A stretch of DNA of 64,000 nucleotides from Candidatus Zhuqueibacterota bacterium (GTDB lineage: Bacteria; Zhuqueibacterota; Zhuqueibacteria; Oceanimicrobiales; Oceanimicrobiaceae), in contig JAJDAG010000134.1 of NCBI GenBank assembly GCA_029262005.1, forward strand, positions 23,317 through 87,316, given 5' to 3'. Numbering within the stretch: the stretch's first letter is position 1; every line of letters starts with the position of its first letter. Both the position numbers and the translations under genes were made by a program. Below, piece by piece: positions 19,702-56,225 of this stretch. The notes under the pieces were generated by a model. That model was given only the letters and a program-made list of their open reading frames with translations, was not told the DNA's origin and did no database searches.

Positions 19702-20067
19702 ACTGCTATTTTACTCAATAACACGCTTTTTTGCAAGTGAAAATTTCAGCCGAAGGACTGCTGCAAGTTCTGCTTGATGAATGTAAATTGTCAATTCCTT
19801 GCATTAGAGTAAACGATTATTATATTTGAATGGCTCTGTGAAAAAAATTGTAAATAATCTAACTTTGAAAAATGTTAAGGCTACCTGAATTGAGCATTTT
19901 AAAATTTAGCGCAGAAATTCCGTGGAGAAATGTTATTCATGCGCGGGAAACTTTGGAACAAAGTTTTAGTTTTGCTTTGTTGCAATGAAAATCGCAACGC
20001 TAAAGTGTTGCTTGCCACGATAATGGCTGAACAGTTATTGATTTTTATTTCTACGGAGAGTTGATTT

Positions 20068-24625: not shown

Positions 24626-24814
24626 GGGGTCTTGCCATCCGGTTTACGCCTCTTGTGGCTGGTTTTGCTCTTCTCATCGCCAGGTCTACCCGACCCGCAG
24701 CTGGGTTTGCTTGAGCCGATGCGAGAGTCACGCCTGCCGAAACAAGGTTTACGCCTCTTGAAACAGAGTTTACTGCTGCTGAAGCAAGGGTTGCTTTTCC
24801 CGAACTGCCTCATA
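24626..24814. repeat. Degenerate 21-bp tandem repeat array A (about 9 units)
   Basis: Consecutive 21-bp units such as cgcctgccgaaacaaggttta / cgcctcttgaaacagagttta / ctgctgctgaagcaagggttg. Confidence 0.8.
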
Positions 24815-24884
24815 CCAAATCGATTATCACTTAATTAAGTCAGAAACCGGTGTTATATGAGCCGGTCCCGCTCGGACAAAATAA

Positions 24885-24919
24885 AAACAGCCGGCCTTCA
24901 TTGCGAAGACCGGCTGTTT
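24885..24919. terminator. Terminator-like hairpin in the duplicated flank of array A
   Basis: aaacagccggccttc att gcgaagaccggctgttt. Confidence 0.75.
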
Positions 24920-25009
24920 GCTGGTTTGTTTTGTGATATTAAATCGATACGAGTGTTGCGCATCCGCCAGAATTGACAACCAATCCTGTTCGAGCGTTAA
25001 AACCTGACA

Positions 25010-25720
25010 CTAAGGCTGGCTCGGGGCCGGCTCAGGGTTGACGACGGGTTCCGTCTCATCGACCACGGTTACGGTGCGGCTGCCATGATTGAACTTGCGG
25101 CGCAGGCCGTATTCCATCATCACCGGATCATTGTAACCCTGTTCCAGGCGAGTCACCAGATAGGCATAAACGCGCTTGCGCAACTCCCGGTATTCCGGGA
25201 TCACTTTCGACAGTTCGATGCGGGTGTTTTCGAGGTCCGCCTTGACATCCGTAATGGTATCAATTTTCTGGCGCAGGGCTTGCGCCTGGGTGGTGACCTC
25301 TGCCAGCACCTCGGCTTCGGGTTTCATGGATTCGTCGGTTTGCTCCGCCGCCACCCGCACGATGTGTTGCAAATGAGCCAGCACCTCGAGACGGCGTGTT
25401 GGCGGATCGTCGGCAACCTGGTAGAGCGCTTTCACTGTGTCCGGCTGCTCTGGCTTGAGACTGGCAAGGGAGTGGCCGACAGCGATACTTGCGCTGCGCC
25501 CGCGCTCCTGGGTCTCCGCCGTTTGCTGCCGCGCCCGCCGCTCATCTGACTTCAGCGTATAAAAAGTGTTGACCAGCCCCGGAAACGCCTTGTTGGCTGC
25601 TTCCACCTCCTTGGCCAGGTCTGCTCGCAGAGGGGTGCCGCTGTTTTGATGGCCTTCCCACATATTTTGCAACAGTTCCAGCCAGTACCCGAAGAGGTGC
25701 TTACCTAATTTTACTGCCAT
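25010..25720 (-). CDS. Hypothetical protein, helical/coiled-coil
   Basis: ORF 25010-25789; inner start MAVKLGKHLFGYWLELLQNMW preferred (gagtata spacer/SD-like upstream). Flanked on both sides by 21-bp repeat arrays. Confidence 0.6.
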   Translation of the reverse strand: MAVKLGKHLFGYWLELLQNMWEGHQNSGTPLRADLAKEVEAANKAFPGLVNTFYTLKSDERRARQQTAETQERGRSASIAVGHSLASLKPEQPDTVKALYQVADDPPTRRLEVLAHLQHIVRVAAEQTDESMKPEAEVLAEVTTQAQALRQKIDTITDVKADLENTRIELSKVIPEYRELRKRVYAYLVTRLEQGYNDPVMMEYGLRRKFNHGSRTVTVVDETEPVVNPEPAPSQP

Positions 25721-25867
25721 GATTATACTCCTTTCCCTGATGTTTTTCGGATCGTCTTTGCCGGGAATATCGGCAGCAGAATGAGCCAACTTGAGCCGCA
25801 GCAGACAATGCCTTCATTCGTATCCATCGTGGGAGTGACAGAAGAGAGACTTTACGGATGGAGGAAA

Positions 25868-26140
25868 AACCTCCGGACGCGGGTCATTTGCCTTTGGTAA
25901 ACGAATGTTGGCGTGCGTGCCGACGATATTGGCTCTCGGCGCAACAACATTGGTTCACGGACAAACAGGTTTGGTCTGTTGACAACCTGTTTTATCCTAA
26001 GAAAAATTGATTTTAGCCTGCGGGAAACCGATTTTGGCTACCAGGTGAAGCGATTGAGGCCCATGGGAAACGTTTTTACCTTGAGGGCAATGCAAGTTTG
26101 ACTGTCGGGCGGACGATTTGAGTTTCGCGGAGCATCATTT
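25868..26140. repeat. Degenerate 21-bp tandem repeat array B (about 13 units)
   Basis: Perfect 21-bp register: ggctctcggcgcaacaacatt, ggttcacggacaaacaggttt, agcctgcgggaaaccgatttt, aggcccatgggaaacgttttt, etc. Confidence 0.85.
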
Positions 26141-26476
26141 TGGAATTGCCGCTATTTGGAAAAATAGAGGGTGGCAGAGCCGCGTGAATGGCCTTTGGGT
26201 TGCAGAGATTCTTGCTCGGTCTGAGTTATTACCCGGGCCGCCCAATAAGAACCGGGCATTTGCCCTAAGCAGTCGTTAAAAAGTTTTTCCTTGAATATTT
26301 TCACATCATTTCCCTCATTGTTTAGGGGGTGGGATAAGACGTGCTTTATATCCAGTTGCAAGACCTTTCATAAATGATTGATTAAAACTAATCAAAATAA
26401 ACGGGCTTCACGTATCCAATCCCCTAAACCATGTCCGGATGCTGCTATACTCAACTTGGTGGGGGAGAAGCCCTTG

Positions 26477-31802: not shown

Positions 31803-34800
31803 CTACTTCATCAAAATCAAACGTTTCATGCTTTGAAAATTGTTGGCTTCGAGTGTATAAATGTAAACACCGCTGGCGACTTTGACGCCTTGCTCATTTG
31901 TGGCGTTCCAGACGACCTGATGTTGACCGGCATTAGCCTGACCGTGATAAAGCGTTTTGATACGTTTGCCCATCATGTTGTAAATGGTCAGTTTCACATC
32001 TCCCGTTTCCGGTACCGTAAACGAAATTGTAGTAGTCGGGTTGAACGGATTCGGGTGGTTCTGCATCAGCGAAAATGCTTCCGGCAGATTTTCGTTGCTG
32101 AAGGACTGCGCTTTGAAAAGACTGTTTTCAGCATCTTCGCCAATTGAGGCAGCGCTGGTAGAACCAAACGGTGTCGCGTTGGCAGTGCCCACATTACCGG
32201 CAGCATCTGTTGCTGTGCAAATCAACGAGGGCGTTTGTACGCCCCGAATTCCGAGTAGATTACCGCTGCCATCGAATACGTAAGTGTCTTTCTGGTTTGC
32301 TGTCGTTACGAACCTGAGCCTTTGGCTGTTGCTCACCGCCACGCCGCCTGCACTTTGAACCGCCGCCCAGAAACTTTGCGGGCCCGGCCCCCAGACTTTC
32401 ACGTTATTTGTTTGGTAGTTAAACTCAAGCCCTTTCCTGCCAGCTACCTGGAATTGGACGGTTGGGCTGCTCAGGGCTGGTATTTGCATCACAGAGCTAA
32501 CTGTTGGGTTGGCATCACAGTTGTCTGTTGCGCTGCAGATAACTGCGTAACCATTCTGGTCGCTATTTAAAACATCTACCAATTTAAGCTGGGCTGTAAC
32601 TACCGGCGCCGTTACGTCCGCCACAATGACATTTTGTGTTTGCTGGCTGGAGTTGCCATTGCCGTCGTCATAAGTCCAGGTGACAGCGAAGGTGCCTTGT
32701 GTTGTGTAAGTGGTCGGGTCTGGTGTTGTGGCTGTGATGCTGCCGGCACAGTTGTCTGTTGCAGTCGGCGCGGTGATTGTGACGCTGCACTCGCCAGTGG
32801 CGTCAGGCAGGCTTGCTACATCCGGCACAGGCGCTGTGTTATCTGCTACGTTGACTGTAATCGTTGTACTGCAAGAACCGCCGTTGCCATCGTCAGCAGA
32901 AACGGTGACTGTGTTGGCGCCAAGCACCAAATTGGTCGGGCTGAGGGTGATGGTGAGCGGGTCGCCATCGGGGTCGGTGACGCCGGTGACATCTGCGCCG
33001 GAGATGGTGGCGCCGCAGTTTCTATCTGCGCTCTGGTCAGCAATAGTCGCGCCGCTGCAGTCGGGCGGCTGGTTGGAAGGTGCGTCGCCGGTGCCTTGAA
33101 TGGAAAAGTCGTACGGATTCTCGTCAGCATCGTCATTGGCAATACTCACAGTTGCTGTTCGCAAGCCTACAGCGCTTGGGTCAAAGGTGATTGTGAATGT
33201 CGTTGTCCCACCACCGGAAGCAACCGGTGTGTTCGCATCAATTGTCAGTGCGAAATCAGCAGCATGGGTACCGCCTATGGTTACTAATGGTGAACCGCCT
33301 GTCAGATTTAAATCTGCCGTACCCGTATTTGTGATTGTAAACTGGTTCGGGTTCGTTCCACTGGTAGTACCAACATTACCAAAATCCGTGTCATCTGTGA
33401 GTGAAGGCGTCACATCGCCGTCAGCAATAGAATTGCCAAGGCCGGATACATCCATCTCGGAAACAGCAGGGCAGTTCTTTCCACCATCCGTAATGGTCCA
33501 GCCATCGGAGCTAATCATATTGGCTCTGGCAGTTTCGCTGCTGCAATATTTGCTGTTGCCGCCAGAAAAACTTACACCACTCTGCAGGTTTTGTGCATTC
33601 CAACCGGTGAGCAGGGCATCATAATTTGCGGTGGAAAGTGTTGCAGCCAAAAACATCGATGTTGCATTTGTTAATGCCTCTACATTCCAGCTTCCGACGT
33701 CCTGGTTAAATGCGGAAGCATTGCGGAACATAAAGCTCATATTCGTTACATTTGCTGTGTTCCAGCTGCCGATGTCCTGGTTAAAGGCCGAAGCGCCCAG
33801 GAACATGGACTTCATATTCGTTACATTCACTGTGTTCCAGCTTCCGATATCCCGGTTAAAGGCGGTGGCGAGCGCGAATGTTTGAAGCATATTCGTTACA
33901 TTCGCCGTGTTCCAGTTGCCGATGTCCTGGTTGAAGGCGGACGCAGAGAAGAACATGGCGCTTATATTCGTTACATTCGCTATGTTCCAGCTTCCAATGT
34001 CCTGGTTAAAAGCGGAAGCACGTAAGAACATAAAGCGCATATCCGTTACATTGGCAGTATTCCAGCTGCCGATGTCCTGGTTAAAGGCGGTGGCATCACT
34101 GAACATGATGCCCATATTCGTTACATTGGCCGTGTTCCAGCTGCCGATGTCCTGGTTAAAGGCGGTGGCACCACGGAACATGTTTTGCATATCCGTTACA
34201 TTCGCTGTATTCCAGCTGCCGATGTCCTGGTTAAAGGCGGAAGCACCGTCGAACGTGGTGCTCATACTCGTTACATTTGCCGTGTTCCAGTTGCCGACGT
34301 CCTGGTTAAAAGCGGAAGCATCCCAAAACATGCCGCTCATATTCGTTACATTTGATAAATCGGGTGCATCACTTGCCTGTCCGGCCAGGTTGGTGCAACC
34401 CAAGAAAGCGCGGAACATGGAAGTCCATTTACCGGTTCCCCACTGGTCAATACTCAGCAATTTATCTTTATCGCCAATATTATTAAAATAAATCTGGGGA
34501 AAGCCGGTGCCAACGCCGCTGTTGTCTTTTATGCGAATGGTATAGGTGCCGGCTGCAGCGTAATTACAAGTGTAATCACCTGTTACGCCGGTGGCTTCGT
34601 CTATGCCATCGTTATCAATATCTACATTGTAATTGTACCCGCCACCGTTGGTGGGGATGGTAAATTGAGTATTTGACGATGTTCCCGGGTTATCGGTTTT
34701 GATGGTGATGACAAAATCATTGGTTGATTGTGCAAAACTCTTTTCAGTGAAAAATGAGCCAATCAACACAGGGGTCGCTAAAATACACAAAATCAATTTT

Positions 34801-48501: not shown

Positions 48502-48627
48502 AGTTTGTTGGCAGGGTTTATGCCTCCCAAAACAAGGTTTTACTCCAACTGAAATAGATTTTACGCCTCCTGAAACAGAGTTTACTCCTGCTGAAGCAAG
48601 GGTTATTTTTCCAGAACTGCCTCATAC
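48502..48627. repeat. Degenerate 21-bp tandem repeat array C (5-6 units)
   Basis: gcctcctgaaacagagtttac / tcctgctgaagcaagggttat; near-identical downstream flank to array A. Confidence 0.8.
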
Positions 48628-48696
48628 CAAATCGATTATCACTTAATTAAGTCAGAAACCGGTGTTATATGAGCCGGTCCCGCTCGGACAAAATAA

Positions 48697-48731
48697 AAAA
48701 AGCCGGCCTTCATTGCGAAGACCGGCTTTTT
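48697..48731. terminator. Terminator-like hairpin, copy of 24885-24919
   Basis: aaaaagccggccttcattgcgaagaccggcttttt. Confidence 0.75.
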
Positions 48732-48791
48732 ACTGGTTTGTTTTGTGATATAAATTGATACGAGTGTTGTGAATTCACCAGAAGTGACAAA

Positions 48792-49359: not shown

Positions 49360-52300
49360 CTACTTCATTAAAATGAGTCGCTTCATAGCCTGAAAATTAT
49401 TGGCTTCGAGTTTGTAAATGTAAATACCGCTGGCGACTTTGATGCCTTGTTCATTTTTGGCGTTCCAGGCAACCTGGTGCTGACCGGCTGCGGCTTGACC
49501 CTGATAAAGCGTTTTGATACGTTTGCCCATCATGTTGTAAATGGTCAGTTTGACTTCAGCCGCTTCCGGCACGTCAAATGTAATCGACGTGGTCGGGTTG
49601 AACGGATTCGGATAGTTCTGTCCCAAAGCAAATGCCTCTGGCAAAGCAGGCGCTTCGTTATTCTTCATCAATCCTTCATGTTCAGCCTGACCCGGCCCGG
49701 CAGTTTTGCTGAAAGGAAAGTCATCACTATCTAAAATAATTCCGGGAAGCGTGCCGACATTAAAAGCATAGCCATATGTTCCCGGTGGCACTGCCGCAGG
49801 AACATTTTGCGTTAGCGCGTCAGGTGTTAATGTTTGTCCCGGTGCCAGAGTTCTGTTCAACCAGGGCCCCAAACTTGCATCCACCGTACCGCCACCTGGT
49901 TTGGTGATAATATTCCATACATCAACAATCTGCACCGATGCTGAGTTGTTGGTGATCTGTACCTGAAATTGAAATGAACCGCCGGTTGCCGGAATGGTGG
50001 TTGAAGTAAGCGGGGTGATTGTAATGGAAACAGGCTGACTGGAGCAGTTCTTGCCGCCATCCGTAATTGTCCAGCCATCGGAGTTGATCATATTGTCTCT
50101 GGCTGCTTCGCCGCCGCAATATTGGCTGTTGCCGCCATCAAAAGTGACGCTACTCTGCAGGTTTTGCGCATCCCAGCCGATGAGCAGGGCGTCATAATTC
50201 TCGTTGGAAAGTGTTACGCCACTAAACATTCTCACTGCATTTGTAAGCGCCTCTACATTCCAGTTTTCGAGATCCTGGTCAAATGTGACAGCATCCATGA
50301 ACATTTGAAACGTATGCGTTACATTCGCTGTGTTCCAGCCACCGATGTCCTGGTTAAAGACGGAAGCGCCATCGAACATATAGTCCAGGCGTGTTACCTT
50401 TATTGTGTTCCAGCTTCCGATGTCCTGGTTGAAGGCAGAAGCACCCTGGAACATACCAAGCATTACCGTTACATTCTCCGTGTTCCAGCTTCCGATATTC
50501 TGATTAAAGCTGGAAGCGCCCTGGAACATATTGCGCATATCCGTTACATTGTCTGTGTTCCAGTTCTCGATGCTCTGGTTAAAGGCGGAAGCGCGCTGAA
50601 ACATACCCCACATATTCGTTACATTCGCTGTATTCCAGTTTCCGATATCCTGGTTAAAGGCGGAAGCATCGAGGAACATCCACGTCATATCCGTAACATT
50701 GGATAAATCAGGCGCATCGCTAGCCTGGCCGCCCAGGTTGCCACACCCTCTAAAAGCGGCGTTCATTGAAATCCATTTACCGGGTCCCCACTTGTCAATG
50801 CTCAGCAATTTATCTTTATCGCCGCCATTATTAAAATAAATCTGCGGAAAGCCTGTGTCGGCGCCGCTGTTATCCATAATACGAATGGTATAGGTTCCGG
50901 CTGCGGCATAATTACAAGTGTAATTACCCGTCACCCCGGTGGCGTCGATTGTGCCATCGTCATCGATATCCACATTGTAATTGTATCCGCCGCCCGTGGT
51001 CGGGATGGTGAACTGAGTATTTGATGATGTTCCCGGATTATCGGTTTTGACGGTAATAACAAAGCCATCGATTATCGGGCAGGCGTCGCCGCCGTCAGTA
51101 ATGGTCCAGCCATCGGCGTTTATCATGTTGGTTCTGGCTGCTTCGCCGCTGCAATACATGCTATTGCCGCCATGAAAATTTACACCACTCTGCAGGTTTT
51201 GTGCATCCCACCCGATGAGCAGGGCATCATAATTTGTAGTGGAAAGTGTAACGCTAGCAAACATACTTGTTGCGCTTGTTAGCGCCGCTACATTCCAGCT
51301 TCCAATATCCTGGTCAAAGGAAGAAGCCAGATTGAACATGTTCCCCATATTCGTTACCTTGGCTGTGTTCCAGCTTCCGATGTCTTGGTTAAAGGCGGTG
51401 GCCACAAACATACCCCACAGACTCGTTACATTTGCTGTGTTCCAGCTTCCGATGTCCTGGTTAAAGGCCGAAGCATAGTAGAACATAGAGTTCATAGTCG
51501 TTACATTCGCTGTGTTCCAGCTTCCGATGTCCTGGTTGAAAGCGGAAGCATAGGCGAACGCTTGAGCCATATTCGTTACATTCGACAAATCAGGCGCATC
51601 AGTTGCTTGCCCTGCCAGATTGGAACAACCTTTAAACGCACTGTTCATCGATGTCCATTTACCGGGTCCCCACTTATCAATACTCAGCAATTTATCCTTA
51701 TCGCCGCCATTGTTAAAATAAATCCGCGGAAAGCCAGTTCCGGCGCCGCTGTTATCCATAATGCGAATGGTATAGGTTCCGGCTGCAGCATAATTACAAG
51801 TGTAATCACCTGTTACTCCGGTGGCGTCGATTGTGCCATCGTCATCAATATCCACATTATAATTATACCCGCTGCCGGTAGTCGGAATGGTAAACTGGGT
51901 ATTTGACGATGTTCCTGCGTTGTCGGTTTTGATGGTAATGACAAAGCCATCGATCACGGGGCAGGCGTCGCCACCGTCAGTAATGGTCCAGCCATCGGCG
52001 TTTATCATGTTGGTTCTGGCTGCTTCGCCTGAGCAATATGTGCTATTGCCGCCATGGAAAGTGACACCACTCTGCAGGTTTTGTGCATCCCAACCGGTGA
52101 GCAGAGCGTCATAGTTTGCGGTGGAAAGTGTTGCGTTCAAAAACATATTTCCTGCACTTGTTAGCGCTGCGACATCCCAGCTGCCAATGTCCTGGTCAAA
52201 GGCGGTTGCGTCGCGGAACATATTGCTCGTATTCGTTACACTTGCTGTGTTCCAGCTTCCAATGTCCTGGTTAAAGACAGTTGCCTGTCGGAACATCTGG

Positions 52301-55300
52301 TTCATATCAGTTACGCTTGCCGTGTTCCAGCCTCCGATGTCCTGGTTAAAGGCAATGGCGTCCTGGAACATCTGGTTCATATTCGTTGCCTTAGCTGTGT
52401 TCCAGCTTCCGATATCCTGGTTAAATGTGTGAGCGCTTAGAAACACATGATCCATAATCGTTACATTTGCCGTGTTCCAACTGCCGATATCCTGGTTAAA
52501 GGCAATAGCGGCGTTTAACATCGAGGACATATTCGTGACATTCCCTACGTTCCAGCCTCCGATATCCTGATTAAATGCGTGAGCGCTTTGGAACATAGCG
52601 GACATATTCGTTACATTTGCTGTGTTCCAACTTCCGATGTTCTGGTTAAAGGCGTAAGCATAGAGGAACATCCGATACATGTTCGTTACATTTGCAGTAT
52701 TCCAGCTTCCGATGTCCTGGTTAAAGACCTTAGCGTTGTTGAACATATAGCTCATATCCGTAACATTCGATAAATCAGGCGCATCGCTTGCCTGTCCGGC
52801 CAGGTTGATACAACCCCAGAAAGCTTGTCCCATGGAATTCCATTTGCCGGTTCCCCACTGGTCAATACTCAACAATTTTTCTTTATCGCCAGCATTACCG
52901 AAACGAATCCGCGGAAAACCTGTGCCTGCGCCGCTGTTGTCAATTATATGAACAGTATAGGTTCCGGCAGCGGCATAGTTACAAGTATAATCACCTGTTA
53001 CCCCGGTGGCTTCAATTGTGCCGTCGCCATCGATATCCACATTGTAATTGTAGCCGCCACCTGCGGTCGGAATAGTAAACTGAGCGCTTGACGAAGTTCC
53101 CGGATTGTCGGTTTTGATGGTGATGATAAAATAATCGGTTGTGGGGCAGTCTTTACCGCCGTCGGTAATGGTCCAGCCATCGGCGTTGATCATATTGGTT
53201 CTGGCTGTTTCGCCTCCGCAATATTTGCTATTGCCACCGTGGAAAGGGACGCCGCTCTGCAGGGTTTGCGCATCCCAACCGGTGAGCAGGGCGTCATAAT
53301 TTGCGGTGGAAAGCGTAACGCCACTAAACATTTGTGTTGCAGTTGTTACTGCTTCTACATTCCAGCTTCCGATATCCTGATCAAAGGCGGTTGCAGAGGT
53401 GAACATTTGCTGCATACTCGTTACCTGAGCTGTGTTCCAGCCTCCGATATCCTGGTTAAAGGCCGAAGCATAGTAGAACACTCGATACATATTCGTCACA
53501 TTCGCAGTATTCCAACTTCCGATGTCCTGGTTAAAGGCGGTTGCGCTCCAAAACATATTGATCATATTCGTAACATTTGCTGTATTCCAGTTTCCGATAT
53601 CCTGGTTAAAGGATGAAGCCTGATAGAACATACCTTGCATATCCGTTACCTGCCCTGTGTTCCAGCTTCCGATATCATGGTTGAAGGTGGAAACATCAAA
53701 GAACATTTGATGCATACTCGTTACATTGGCTGTGTTCCAGTTTCCAATGTCCTGGTTAAAGGCGGTAGCCTTATAGAACATATTGCGCATATTCGTTACA
53801 TTTGCTGTGTTCCAGCCTCCGATGTTCTGGTTAAAGGCCGAAGCCTGGTTGAACATGTTGGCCATATCCGTGACATTCGCTGTGTTCCAGCCGCCGATGT
53901 CCTGGTTAAATGCTGAAGCATTAGTGAACATAGAGTGTATATTTGTTGCATTTGCTGTGTTCCAGTTTCCGATGTCATGATTAAAGACTGTAGCGCCATA
54001 GAACATACTGCGCATATCTGTTACATTCGCAACATTCCAACTTCCGATATCCTGATTAAAGGATTCAGCACCGAAAAACATAGCTTCCATATCGGTCACA
54101 TTAGCTGTGTTCCAGTTTCCAATATCCTGATTAAAGGCCGAAGCATTATAGAAAACACTTTGCATATTTGTTACATTCTCTGTGTTCCAGCTTCCGATGT
54201 CCTGGTTAAAGGACGAAGCGTTGGAGAACATAGTATGCATACTTGTTACATTCGACAAATCAGGCGCATCGCTCGCCTGTCCGGCAAGATTGGAGCAGCC
54301 ATGAAAAGCGCGTTCCATCGAAGTCCATTTACCCGTTCCCCACTGGTCAATGCTAAGCAATTTATCTTTATCGCCGCCATTATTAAAATAAATGCGCGGA
54401 AAGCCCGTTCCGGCGCCGCTGTTGTCAATGATGTGGATGGTATAAGTTCCGGCTGCTGCGTAATTACAGGTGTAACTGCCGGTTTGACCGGTAGCTTCGA
54501 TTGAGCCGTCGCCATCGATATCCACATTGTAATTGTAGCTGCCGCCTGTGGTCGGGATGGTAAACTGCGTGCTTGATGAAGTGCCCGGGTTATCTGTTTT
54601 GATGGTCATGATAAAATAATCGGTTGTGGGACAATCCTGCCCGCCATCTGTAATGCTCCAGTTATCTGAGCTGATCATATTGGCTCTCGCTGATGCGCCT
54701 GAGCAATATTTACTGTTGCCGCCATGAAAAGTGACGCCGCTCTGCAGGGTTTGCGCATCCCAACCGGTGAGCAGGGCGTCGTAATTTGCAGTGGAAAGAG
54801 TCACGCCTAGAAACATCCCTGTTGCATCTGTTAGCGCCGTTACATTCAAGCCTCCGATGTCCTGATTAAAGGCGGTAGCCCCATTGAACATATGGTTCAT
54901 ATCCGTGACATTTGCTGTGTTCCAGCTTCCAATGTCCTGGTTAAAGGCGGTAGCAAACGCGAACATTTTCTGCATACTCGTTACATTTGCTGTGTTCCAG
55001 CTACCGATGTCCTGATTAAAACCCGAAGCTGAATAGAACGTATGGTTCATATTCGTTACATTGGCTGTGTTCCACCCACTGATGTCCCGGTTAAAGGCCG
55101 AAGCTTCGTAGAACATAGCGTCTATATTCGTTACATTTGCCGTGTTCCAGCCTCCAATGTCCTGGTTAAAGGCGGTGGCGCCTCGGAACATGTTCAGCAT
55201 AGTCGCTACATTTGCTGTGTTCCAGCTGCTGATATCTTGGTTAAAGGTGGAGGCAGTGAAGAACAAATGATCCATAGTCGTTACATTTGCAGTGTTCCAA

Positions 55301-55902
55301 TTGCCGATGTCCTGGTTAAAGGCTGAAGCCCCGCTGAACAATGAACTCATAGTCGTTACATTAGCAGTATTCCAGCTTCCAATGTCCTGGTTGAAGGCCG
55401 AAGCCTGAGTGAACATATGCCTCATATTTGTTACGTTTGACAAATCAGGTGCATCACTTGCCTGTCCTGCCAGGTTGGAACAACCATAGAAAGCGCGTTC
55501 CATGGAGGTCCATTTCCCGGTTCCCCACTGATCAATACTCAATAATTTATCTTTATCGCCTCCAAGATTAAAATAAATCCGCGGAAAGCCTGTGCCCGCG
55601 CCGCTGTTGTCTTTAATGCGAATGGTATAAGTTCCCGCCGCAGCATAATCGCATGTGTAGTCGCCTGTTACGCCGGTTGCTTCGTCTATGCCATCGTTAT
55701 CAATATCCACATTGTAATTATATCCGCCGCCGGTGGTGGGGATGGTAAATTGTGTATTTGACGAAGTTCCAGCGTTATCGGTTTTGACGGTGATGACAAA
55801 ATCATCGGTTGATTGTGCAAAACCCTTTTCAGGAAAAAATGAGCCAGGCAATACAAAGATCCCTAAAAGATACATAATCCATTTGGTTAAATTGGTTTTC
55901 AT
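49360..55902 (-). CDS. Giant secreted BspA-like (DUF285) protein with five internal modules and T9SS-like C-terminal sorting domain
   Basis: Five occurrences of DxFxITIKTDNxGTSS.TQFTIP...DKLLSIDxWGxGKW, each followed by 25-aa [25 protein letters not shown] repeats; C-terminus [31 protein letters not shown]...RLILMK. Confidence 0.92.
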
Positions 55903-56155: not shown

Positions 56156-56225
56156 GACCGGCTTTTTGCTGGTTTGTTTTGTGAAATTAAATCGATATCA
56201 ATGTTGCGCATCCGCCAGAAGTGAC
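56156..56225. repeat. Third, partial copy of the flank of arrays A and C
   Basis: gaccggctttttgctggtttgttttgtgaaattaaatcgatatcaatgttgcgcatccgccagaagtgac matches 24908-24980 and 48720-48788. Confidence 0.75.

Follow-up and report, generated by a model that had tools for sequence, protein, structure and literature searches.

The window, a 64,000-nucleotide stretch of the genome of a Candidatus Zhuqueibacterota bacterium, contains a tandem array of degenerate 21-bp units that precedes the gene for an all-α protein, and the same pairing of array and gene recurs at related loci of the phylum and, with longer units, at DUF6261 loci of Bacteroidota. We propose, at what we judge to be even chances, that this array (A2) acts in cis within a locus of two parts, the other being the encoded protein, which would bind A2 as a DNA element with multiple sites. 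The linkage of A2 to its downstream gene is the main point of the present analysis and was absent from the preliminary description of this DNA. The locus is composed of the following features.

25883..26150 (approximate), minus strand, the strand of the gene that it precedes: array A2, about 12–13 degenerate 21-bp units
25721..25882, minus strand: gap (5′ region) of about 162–163 bp between A2 and the start codon, from the sequence
25010..25720, minus strand: gene for a 236-residue all-α protein of the window-type family, from the open reading frame (ATG at 25720)

The preliminary description had staked A2 on an autocorrelation at lag 21 above that of dinucleotide-shuffled controls, and this is what is observed. 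Across 25868–26140, identity at lag 21 is 0.468, compared with 0.251 ± 0.028 in dinucleotide-preserving shuffles, none of which reached that value in 2000 trials. The observed identity also exceeds the 99.9% quantile of the shuffle maximum across lags 5–69 (0.378), and lags 42, 63 and 84 are likewise elevated (0.42, 0.40 and 0.44). The unit consensus is approximately GATTTTGGCCTGCGGGCAAAC in the register 25883–26150. The array had been described as about 13 units of strictly 21 bp without indels; 12–13 units and a nearly indel-free course hold, although one 22-bp step, or one 22-bp and one compensating 20-bp step, occurs depending on the alignment. The view that A2 is not a CRISPR array was correct, given that its 21-bp units run on without spacers, vary across their whole length and lack the alternation of repeats and unique spacers of a CRISPR or TIGR-like layout. 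No Rfam model matches positions 20000–50000 of the window above its gathering score. Separately, coding tandem repeats of 75 bp are found at 33685–34352, 50313–50700, 51293–51584, 52177–52767, 53360–54254 and 54845–55439, where they encode BspA-type repeats in large secreted proteins, one of 1008 and one of 2189 residues.

What kind of protein is encoded beside A2? The gene is preceded by a good Shine-Dalgarno sequence, GGAAAGGAG, at about 25728–25736, and its product carries a YGLRRKF motif and a VTVVDE tail. The protein has no match above cut-off in Pfam or NCBIfam, including the PQLLE family NF052641 (curated cut-off of 80 bits) and DUF6261, PF19775 (Pfam gathering cut-off; hhalign E 0.32), and no convincing match in PADLOC, PHROGs or the PDB sequences. 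No DNA-binding domain of known type was recognised. In a single-sequence AlphaFold2 model (pLDDT 66) the protein is helical throughout and has two long helical segments, and a fold search with this model returned no significant structural match. The mean net charge of the protein families is close to zero or slightly negative (about −0.8 and −3.8).

The window-type family has 13 matches in its own genome, about 32 in the related genome G003 and a few elsewhere, fragments among them. The window protein shares 33–34% identity with the neighbours of three G003 arrays and 76% with the proteins of two further G003 loci (L214 and L216), whose arrays are recognisably related to A2 and which partly keep the 5′ region between A2 and the gene. 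The genes flanking the window locus are unrelated to it, and the neighbours at other loci are diverse. Several G003 members (L204, L209, L214 and others) have one in-frame stop within the window-type match, in some cases perhaps the terminal stop codon of the gene itself, and the family also includes several C-terminal fragments. Given these stops and fragments, birth and decay in the family may be quick.

A listing of flanking genes first showed several arrays directly upstream of genes for all-α proteins of about 220–260 residues. Homologues of the two families concerned, NF052641 and the window-type family, were then gathered by protein alone from the 64 genomes of the class, and the 700 bp upstream of each gene were scored as carrying an array when the best lag within 12–35 was 21 with an identity of at least 0.5, among loci for which 250 bp or more of upstream sequence was available. 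A 21-bp array lies upstream in 31 of 36 window-type or PQLLE loci and in none of 501 control genes from the same genome (Fisher p=1.8e-45, a value that overstates the number of independent events because homologous loci are not independent, although the contrast is still plain). When the six loci that had been ascertained through their arrays are set aside, 25 of 30 have the upstream array. The window locus itself (L205) has 21 as its top lag, with an identity of 0.58. The neighbour of the array on contig C10 (L141/L196) is a PQLLE protein (NF052641 of NCBIfam, E 5.8e-60), and a PQLLE gene with an upstream 21-bp array (L234) is found in a genome of another class of the phylum (G076). The locus layout consists of a tandem array, a gap of usually 20–400 bp and a gene for an all-α protein of about 210–260 residues. 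Proteins of about 240 residues at loci L197–L202 (in G000, G003 and G026) score only weakly against PQLLE (E 1e-6 to 1e-11) and also have upstream 21-bp arrays, which suggests that additional divergent families are arranged alike.

Five of the 36 loci (L213, L229, L185, L194 and L186) are devoid of the array, which is therefore not indispensable; L213 keeps the conserved 5′ region without the array, indicating that the array can be lost.

The arrays have a homogeneous centre and decayed edges, as would be expected of a neutral minisatellite generated by slippage in tolerant intergenic spacers, with the 21-bp length a matter of chance. However, the linkage to one gene family against none of the control genes refutes slippage as the whole explanation, and both the single period and its recurrence at 41–42 bp with DUF6261 argue against it further. 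We consider a neutral origin very improbable.

The sequence of the unit varies from locus to locus, and the 21-bp period is constant. The 31 gene-linked arrays contain about 10 steps other than 21 bp against about 2534 substitutions from consensus, a ratio that is an estimate since the aligner penalises non-21 steps. The period is kept while the sequence is not, which supports the earlier suggestion of selection on spacing, although recombination that homogenises arrays could give the same scarcity of indels. Array and protein also diverge together. By a Mantel test (r=0.46, p=5e-4), array similarity correlates with protein identity, and mean unit similarity is 0.55 where protein identity exceeds 55% and 0.31–0.33 below. 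In 39 of the 40 most similar protein pairs, the two arrays match best when both are read in the same orientation with respect to their genes. Such co-divergence could also reflect plain linkage by joint duplication.

Within the unit, A+T content follows a 7-bp sub-period that is detected in 21-bp arrays (z 6.2) and in the 42-bp (z 4.7) and 41-bp (z 3.0) arrays of the DUF6261 loci; this signature played no part in finding either array set. Sub-periods of 3 bp and 10.5 bp are not significant in the 21-, 41- or 42-bp arrays. The earlier idea that 21 bp represents two helical turns is possible as a spacing, but the sub-period that reaches significance is 7 bp, not 10.5 bp. Curvature from phased A-tracts, which had been put forward as a check, was dropped (10.5-bp harmonic, z 1.7).

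The preliminary description had alternatively read the 21-bp unit as a heptapeptide, such that the array would encode a small repeat protein. Some arrays are indeed open in at least one frame, with a mean of 1.6 of six open frames against 1.1 expected. Nonetheless, stop codons interrupt all six frames of A2, in eight of the 31 arrays every frame is closed, the 3-bp compositional period is missing and the period is 41 in many Bacteroidota arrays. The stop codons exclude coding for A2, and a coding function of the arrays in general is, on these grounds, unsupported and extremely improbable.

DUF6261 (PF19775), a family whose size and helical look we take to be similar to those of the array-linked proteins, was examined for this reason. 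At 27 of 31 DUF6261 loci the top upstream lag within 12–69 is 41 (10 loci) or 42 (17 loci), and the downstream lags are scattered, with a single 41 and no 42. Profile comparison by hhalign detected no homology among the window-type, PQLLE and DUF6261 families. The arrangement of array and all-α gene is widespread, in at least two phyla, and the window locus has both features of the proposed class, an array with a period of 21 or 41–42 bp within about 700 bp upstream and an all-α gene.

The main rival explanation places the partnership at the level of RNA: the array would be transcribed into a repeat RNA that serves as ligand, substrate or inhibitor of the protein encoded downstream, as in type III toxin–antitoxin loci. 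The gene order is the same as in those loci, some gaps contain a strong ribosome-binding site and terminator-like stems, the orientation of the array relative to the gene is conserved, and DUF6261 arrays give a strong hairpin signal (mean z −2.9). However, that signal stems from inverted repeats and is nearly equal on the antisense strand (mean z −2.7). Moreover, the 31 21-bp arrays fold no better than column-permuted controls (mean z −0.20 sense and −0.08 antisense), so an RNA hairpin array was dropped as a candidate for the 21-bp class; A2 taken alone gives z −3.5 on the sense strand. The all-α proteins match no toxin family, and arrays without a gene are dispersed elsewhere in the genome. 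An RNA-level role appears unlikely, at roughly one part in several of our expectation.

In addition to A2, the window contains two further 21-bp arrays that share a flanking element.

24641..24808, plus strand: array A1, 21-bp unit GGTTTACGCCTCYTGAAACAG, 202 bp past the 3′ end of the window gene, without an adjacent cognate gene
48516..48620, plus strand: array A3, 21-bp units, without an adjacent cognate gene
24809..24960 and 48621-48770, no strand assigned: element common to the flanks of A1 and A3, 95% identity

The nearest relatives of the A1 and A3 units are gene-linked arrays of one G003 group (L204/L209/L212), and the last units of A1 and A3 together with the following ~140 bp are 95% identical. 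A hairpin scan places a strong, bidirectional terminator-like hairpin at 24885–24919 in the element beside A1, and the hairpin part of this dispersed element recurs alone at 56156–56208. ARAGORN found no tRNA remnant in the neighbourhood of another array, A4.

More 21-bp arrays are present in the same genome, on contigs C128, C10, C184, C35, C193, C201, C202, C97, C168 and C5, as well as in G003, in a census that sampled about 1.1 Mb, targeted contigs included. On contigs that were not chosen for their arrays (855 kb), intergenic 21-bp arrays are rare, with two peaks, so that the arrays count as discrete loci and not as a property of the genome at large. Six gene-less arrays (C184, C35, two on C193, C202 and C168) resemble the array of the C10 PQLLE gene with a similarity of 0.85–0.98, and two (C97 and C184) correspond to that of the C5 gene, although several arrays end at contig ends and the gene of some apparent orphans may sit on an unjoined contig. 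The array on C201 likely belongs with the gene on C101. The homology of the gene-less arrays covers a leader of about 70 bp and the array; on C35 the 5′ region of the gene is kept and the gene is absent, and on C97 a gene remnant is left. Two arrays of the same genome (L158, 141–267, and L180, 9510–9660) have 21-bp units that match no gene-linked array here (best similarity 0.46–0.48). A pattern scan of 85k genomes gave 10 matches with a clear multi-unit 21-bp array in only one, a Bacteroidetes MAG, in which 12 units of 21 bp (TTCCGTTACCAGGTTTTTCAT) lie near a contig end (L034, 6648–6901) and no PQLLE or DUF6261 match is found.

Dispersal of this kind raises the second rival explanation, in which the arrays behave as satellite or MITE-like repeats that spread with the help of the gene, comparable to REP/RAYT, and serve no host function. 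The multiple gene copies in the two genomes, the homology of gene-less arrays over leader and array, and a resemblance to the BrickBuilt MITEs of Porphyromonas gingivalis (PMC4596501) are consistent with such a repeat. On the other hand, the proteins match no transposase family and the all-α model is unlike HUH or DDE enzymes. For the queries tried, PQLLE relatives occur in no phages, plasmids or viral contigs and window-type relatives in no viral contigs, and the conservation of both the position before the start codon and the period argues for function. We regard a selfish repeat as a doubtful account, on a par with the RNA-level one; the two each fail at least one tested defining feature of class membership.

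What, then, could the array do for the protein? From the linkage, the fixed period, the co-divergence of array and protein, the dispersed cognate arrays and the parallel linkage of DUF6261, we infer a function in DNA recognition. The protein, or an oligomer of it, would recognise its own array as a multi-site element through cooperative binding, and the spacing of sites within the array would be what selection keeps. The target is most likely duplex DNA rather than transcribed RNA because the 21-bp arrays lack an RNA-fold signal, the inverted repeats of DUF6261 arrays are strand-symmetric and gene-less copies are dispersed. Bound protein may control its own gene by acting at its own promoter and may, furthermore, mark or organise other sites that carry a cognate gene-less array, like a centromere-like or operator array. 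More speculatively, a 7-bp step combined with a 21-bp repeat might realign the recognition steps with the B-DNA helix after every second turn. The proposal of DNA binding has to be weighed against the lack of a known DNA-binding domain, the near-neutral to acidic charge and a model of pLDDT 66 without a confident fold match. A wider and distinctly more tentative possibility is a chromosomal nucleoprotein system, undescribed and present in at least two phyla, in which all-α families would read their own arrays in 7-bp steps (three per 21-bp unit and six per 42), spread as a filament and use dispersed gene-less arrays as extra sites, with many orthogonal pairs per genome.

With the proposed pairing, proteins of unknown function acquire a candidate ligand that can be tested directly. 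Genes of the PQLLE and DUF6261 types seem to be accompanied by a conserved element acting in cis, which annotation pipelines either pass over or mistake for heptapeptide open reading frames. Constraint that holds a period strictly while the sequence drifts is, in addition, unusual, and numerous orthogonal protein–array pairs per genome, if true, would be a natural resource for the study of multi-site nucleic-acid recognition.

Several known systems join a repeat array to a protein gene. In type III toxin–antitoxin systems (ToxIN, CptIN and TenpIN), a tandem-repeat RNA antitoxin lies upstream of the toxin gene. The present loci likewise have a tandem-repeat element directly before a single protein gene, but their units are shorter and more numerous, the 21-bp arrays show no RNA-fold signal and gene-less arrays lie elsewhere; no toxin of the ToxN, AbiQ, CptN or TenpN type was matched in Pfam, NCBIfam or PADLOC, and the model is all-α. 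REP/RAYT systems similarly combine one gene that has adjacent repeats with cognate gene-less repeats elsewhere. However, REP sequences are hairpin pairs, whereas the arrays here hold 8–20 direct units, and the window protein has no Pfam transposase match and a model without strands, unlike a Y1 (HUH) transposase. Centromeres of the parC–ParR type are direct-repeat arrays upstream of the gene for their binding protein. The present loci share the direct-repeat array before a gene, but they are chromosomal and multi-copy and lack a ParR family match, and no ParM-, ParA- or TubZ-like NTPase partner, as in parC–ParR or TubC–TubR, was seen beside the array-linked genes.

A search of the literature, with subscription journals outside its scope, returned nothing on PQLLE or on matching 21- or 41/42-bp bacterial arrays and an unrelated mention of DUF6261. 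The association of array and all-α gene is apparently undescribed, no published description having been found. The closest published element found is BrickBuilt, a MITE/minisatellite of P. gingivalis with 23-bp head-to-tail repeats without spacers, a leader, a tail and inverted-repeat ends (PMC4596501). It resembles the present arrays in being dispersed and intergenic, with a leader, short repeats and many copies per genome, but differs in its period (23 bp versus 21 or 41–42 bp here) and is called a miniature transposable element, in an abstract that mentions no linked cognate protein gene (PMC4596501). PQLLE (NF052641) and DUF6261 (PF19775), both families of unknown function, represent the protein halves of the same arrangement as that of the window. 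Thus, the array–gene locus is likely a new protein–DNA (or protein–RNA) system of bacterial chromosomes.
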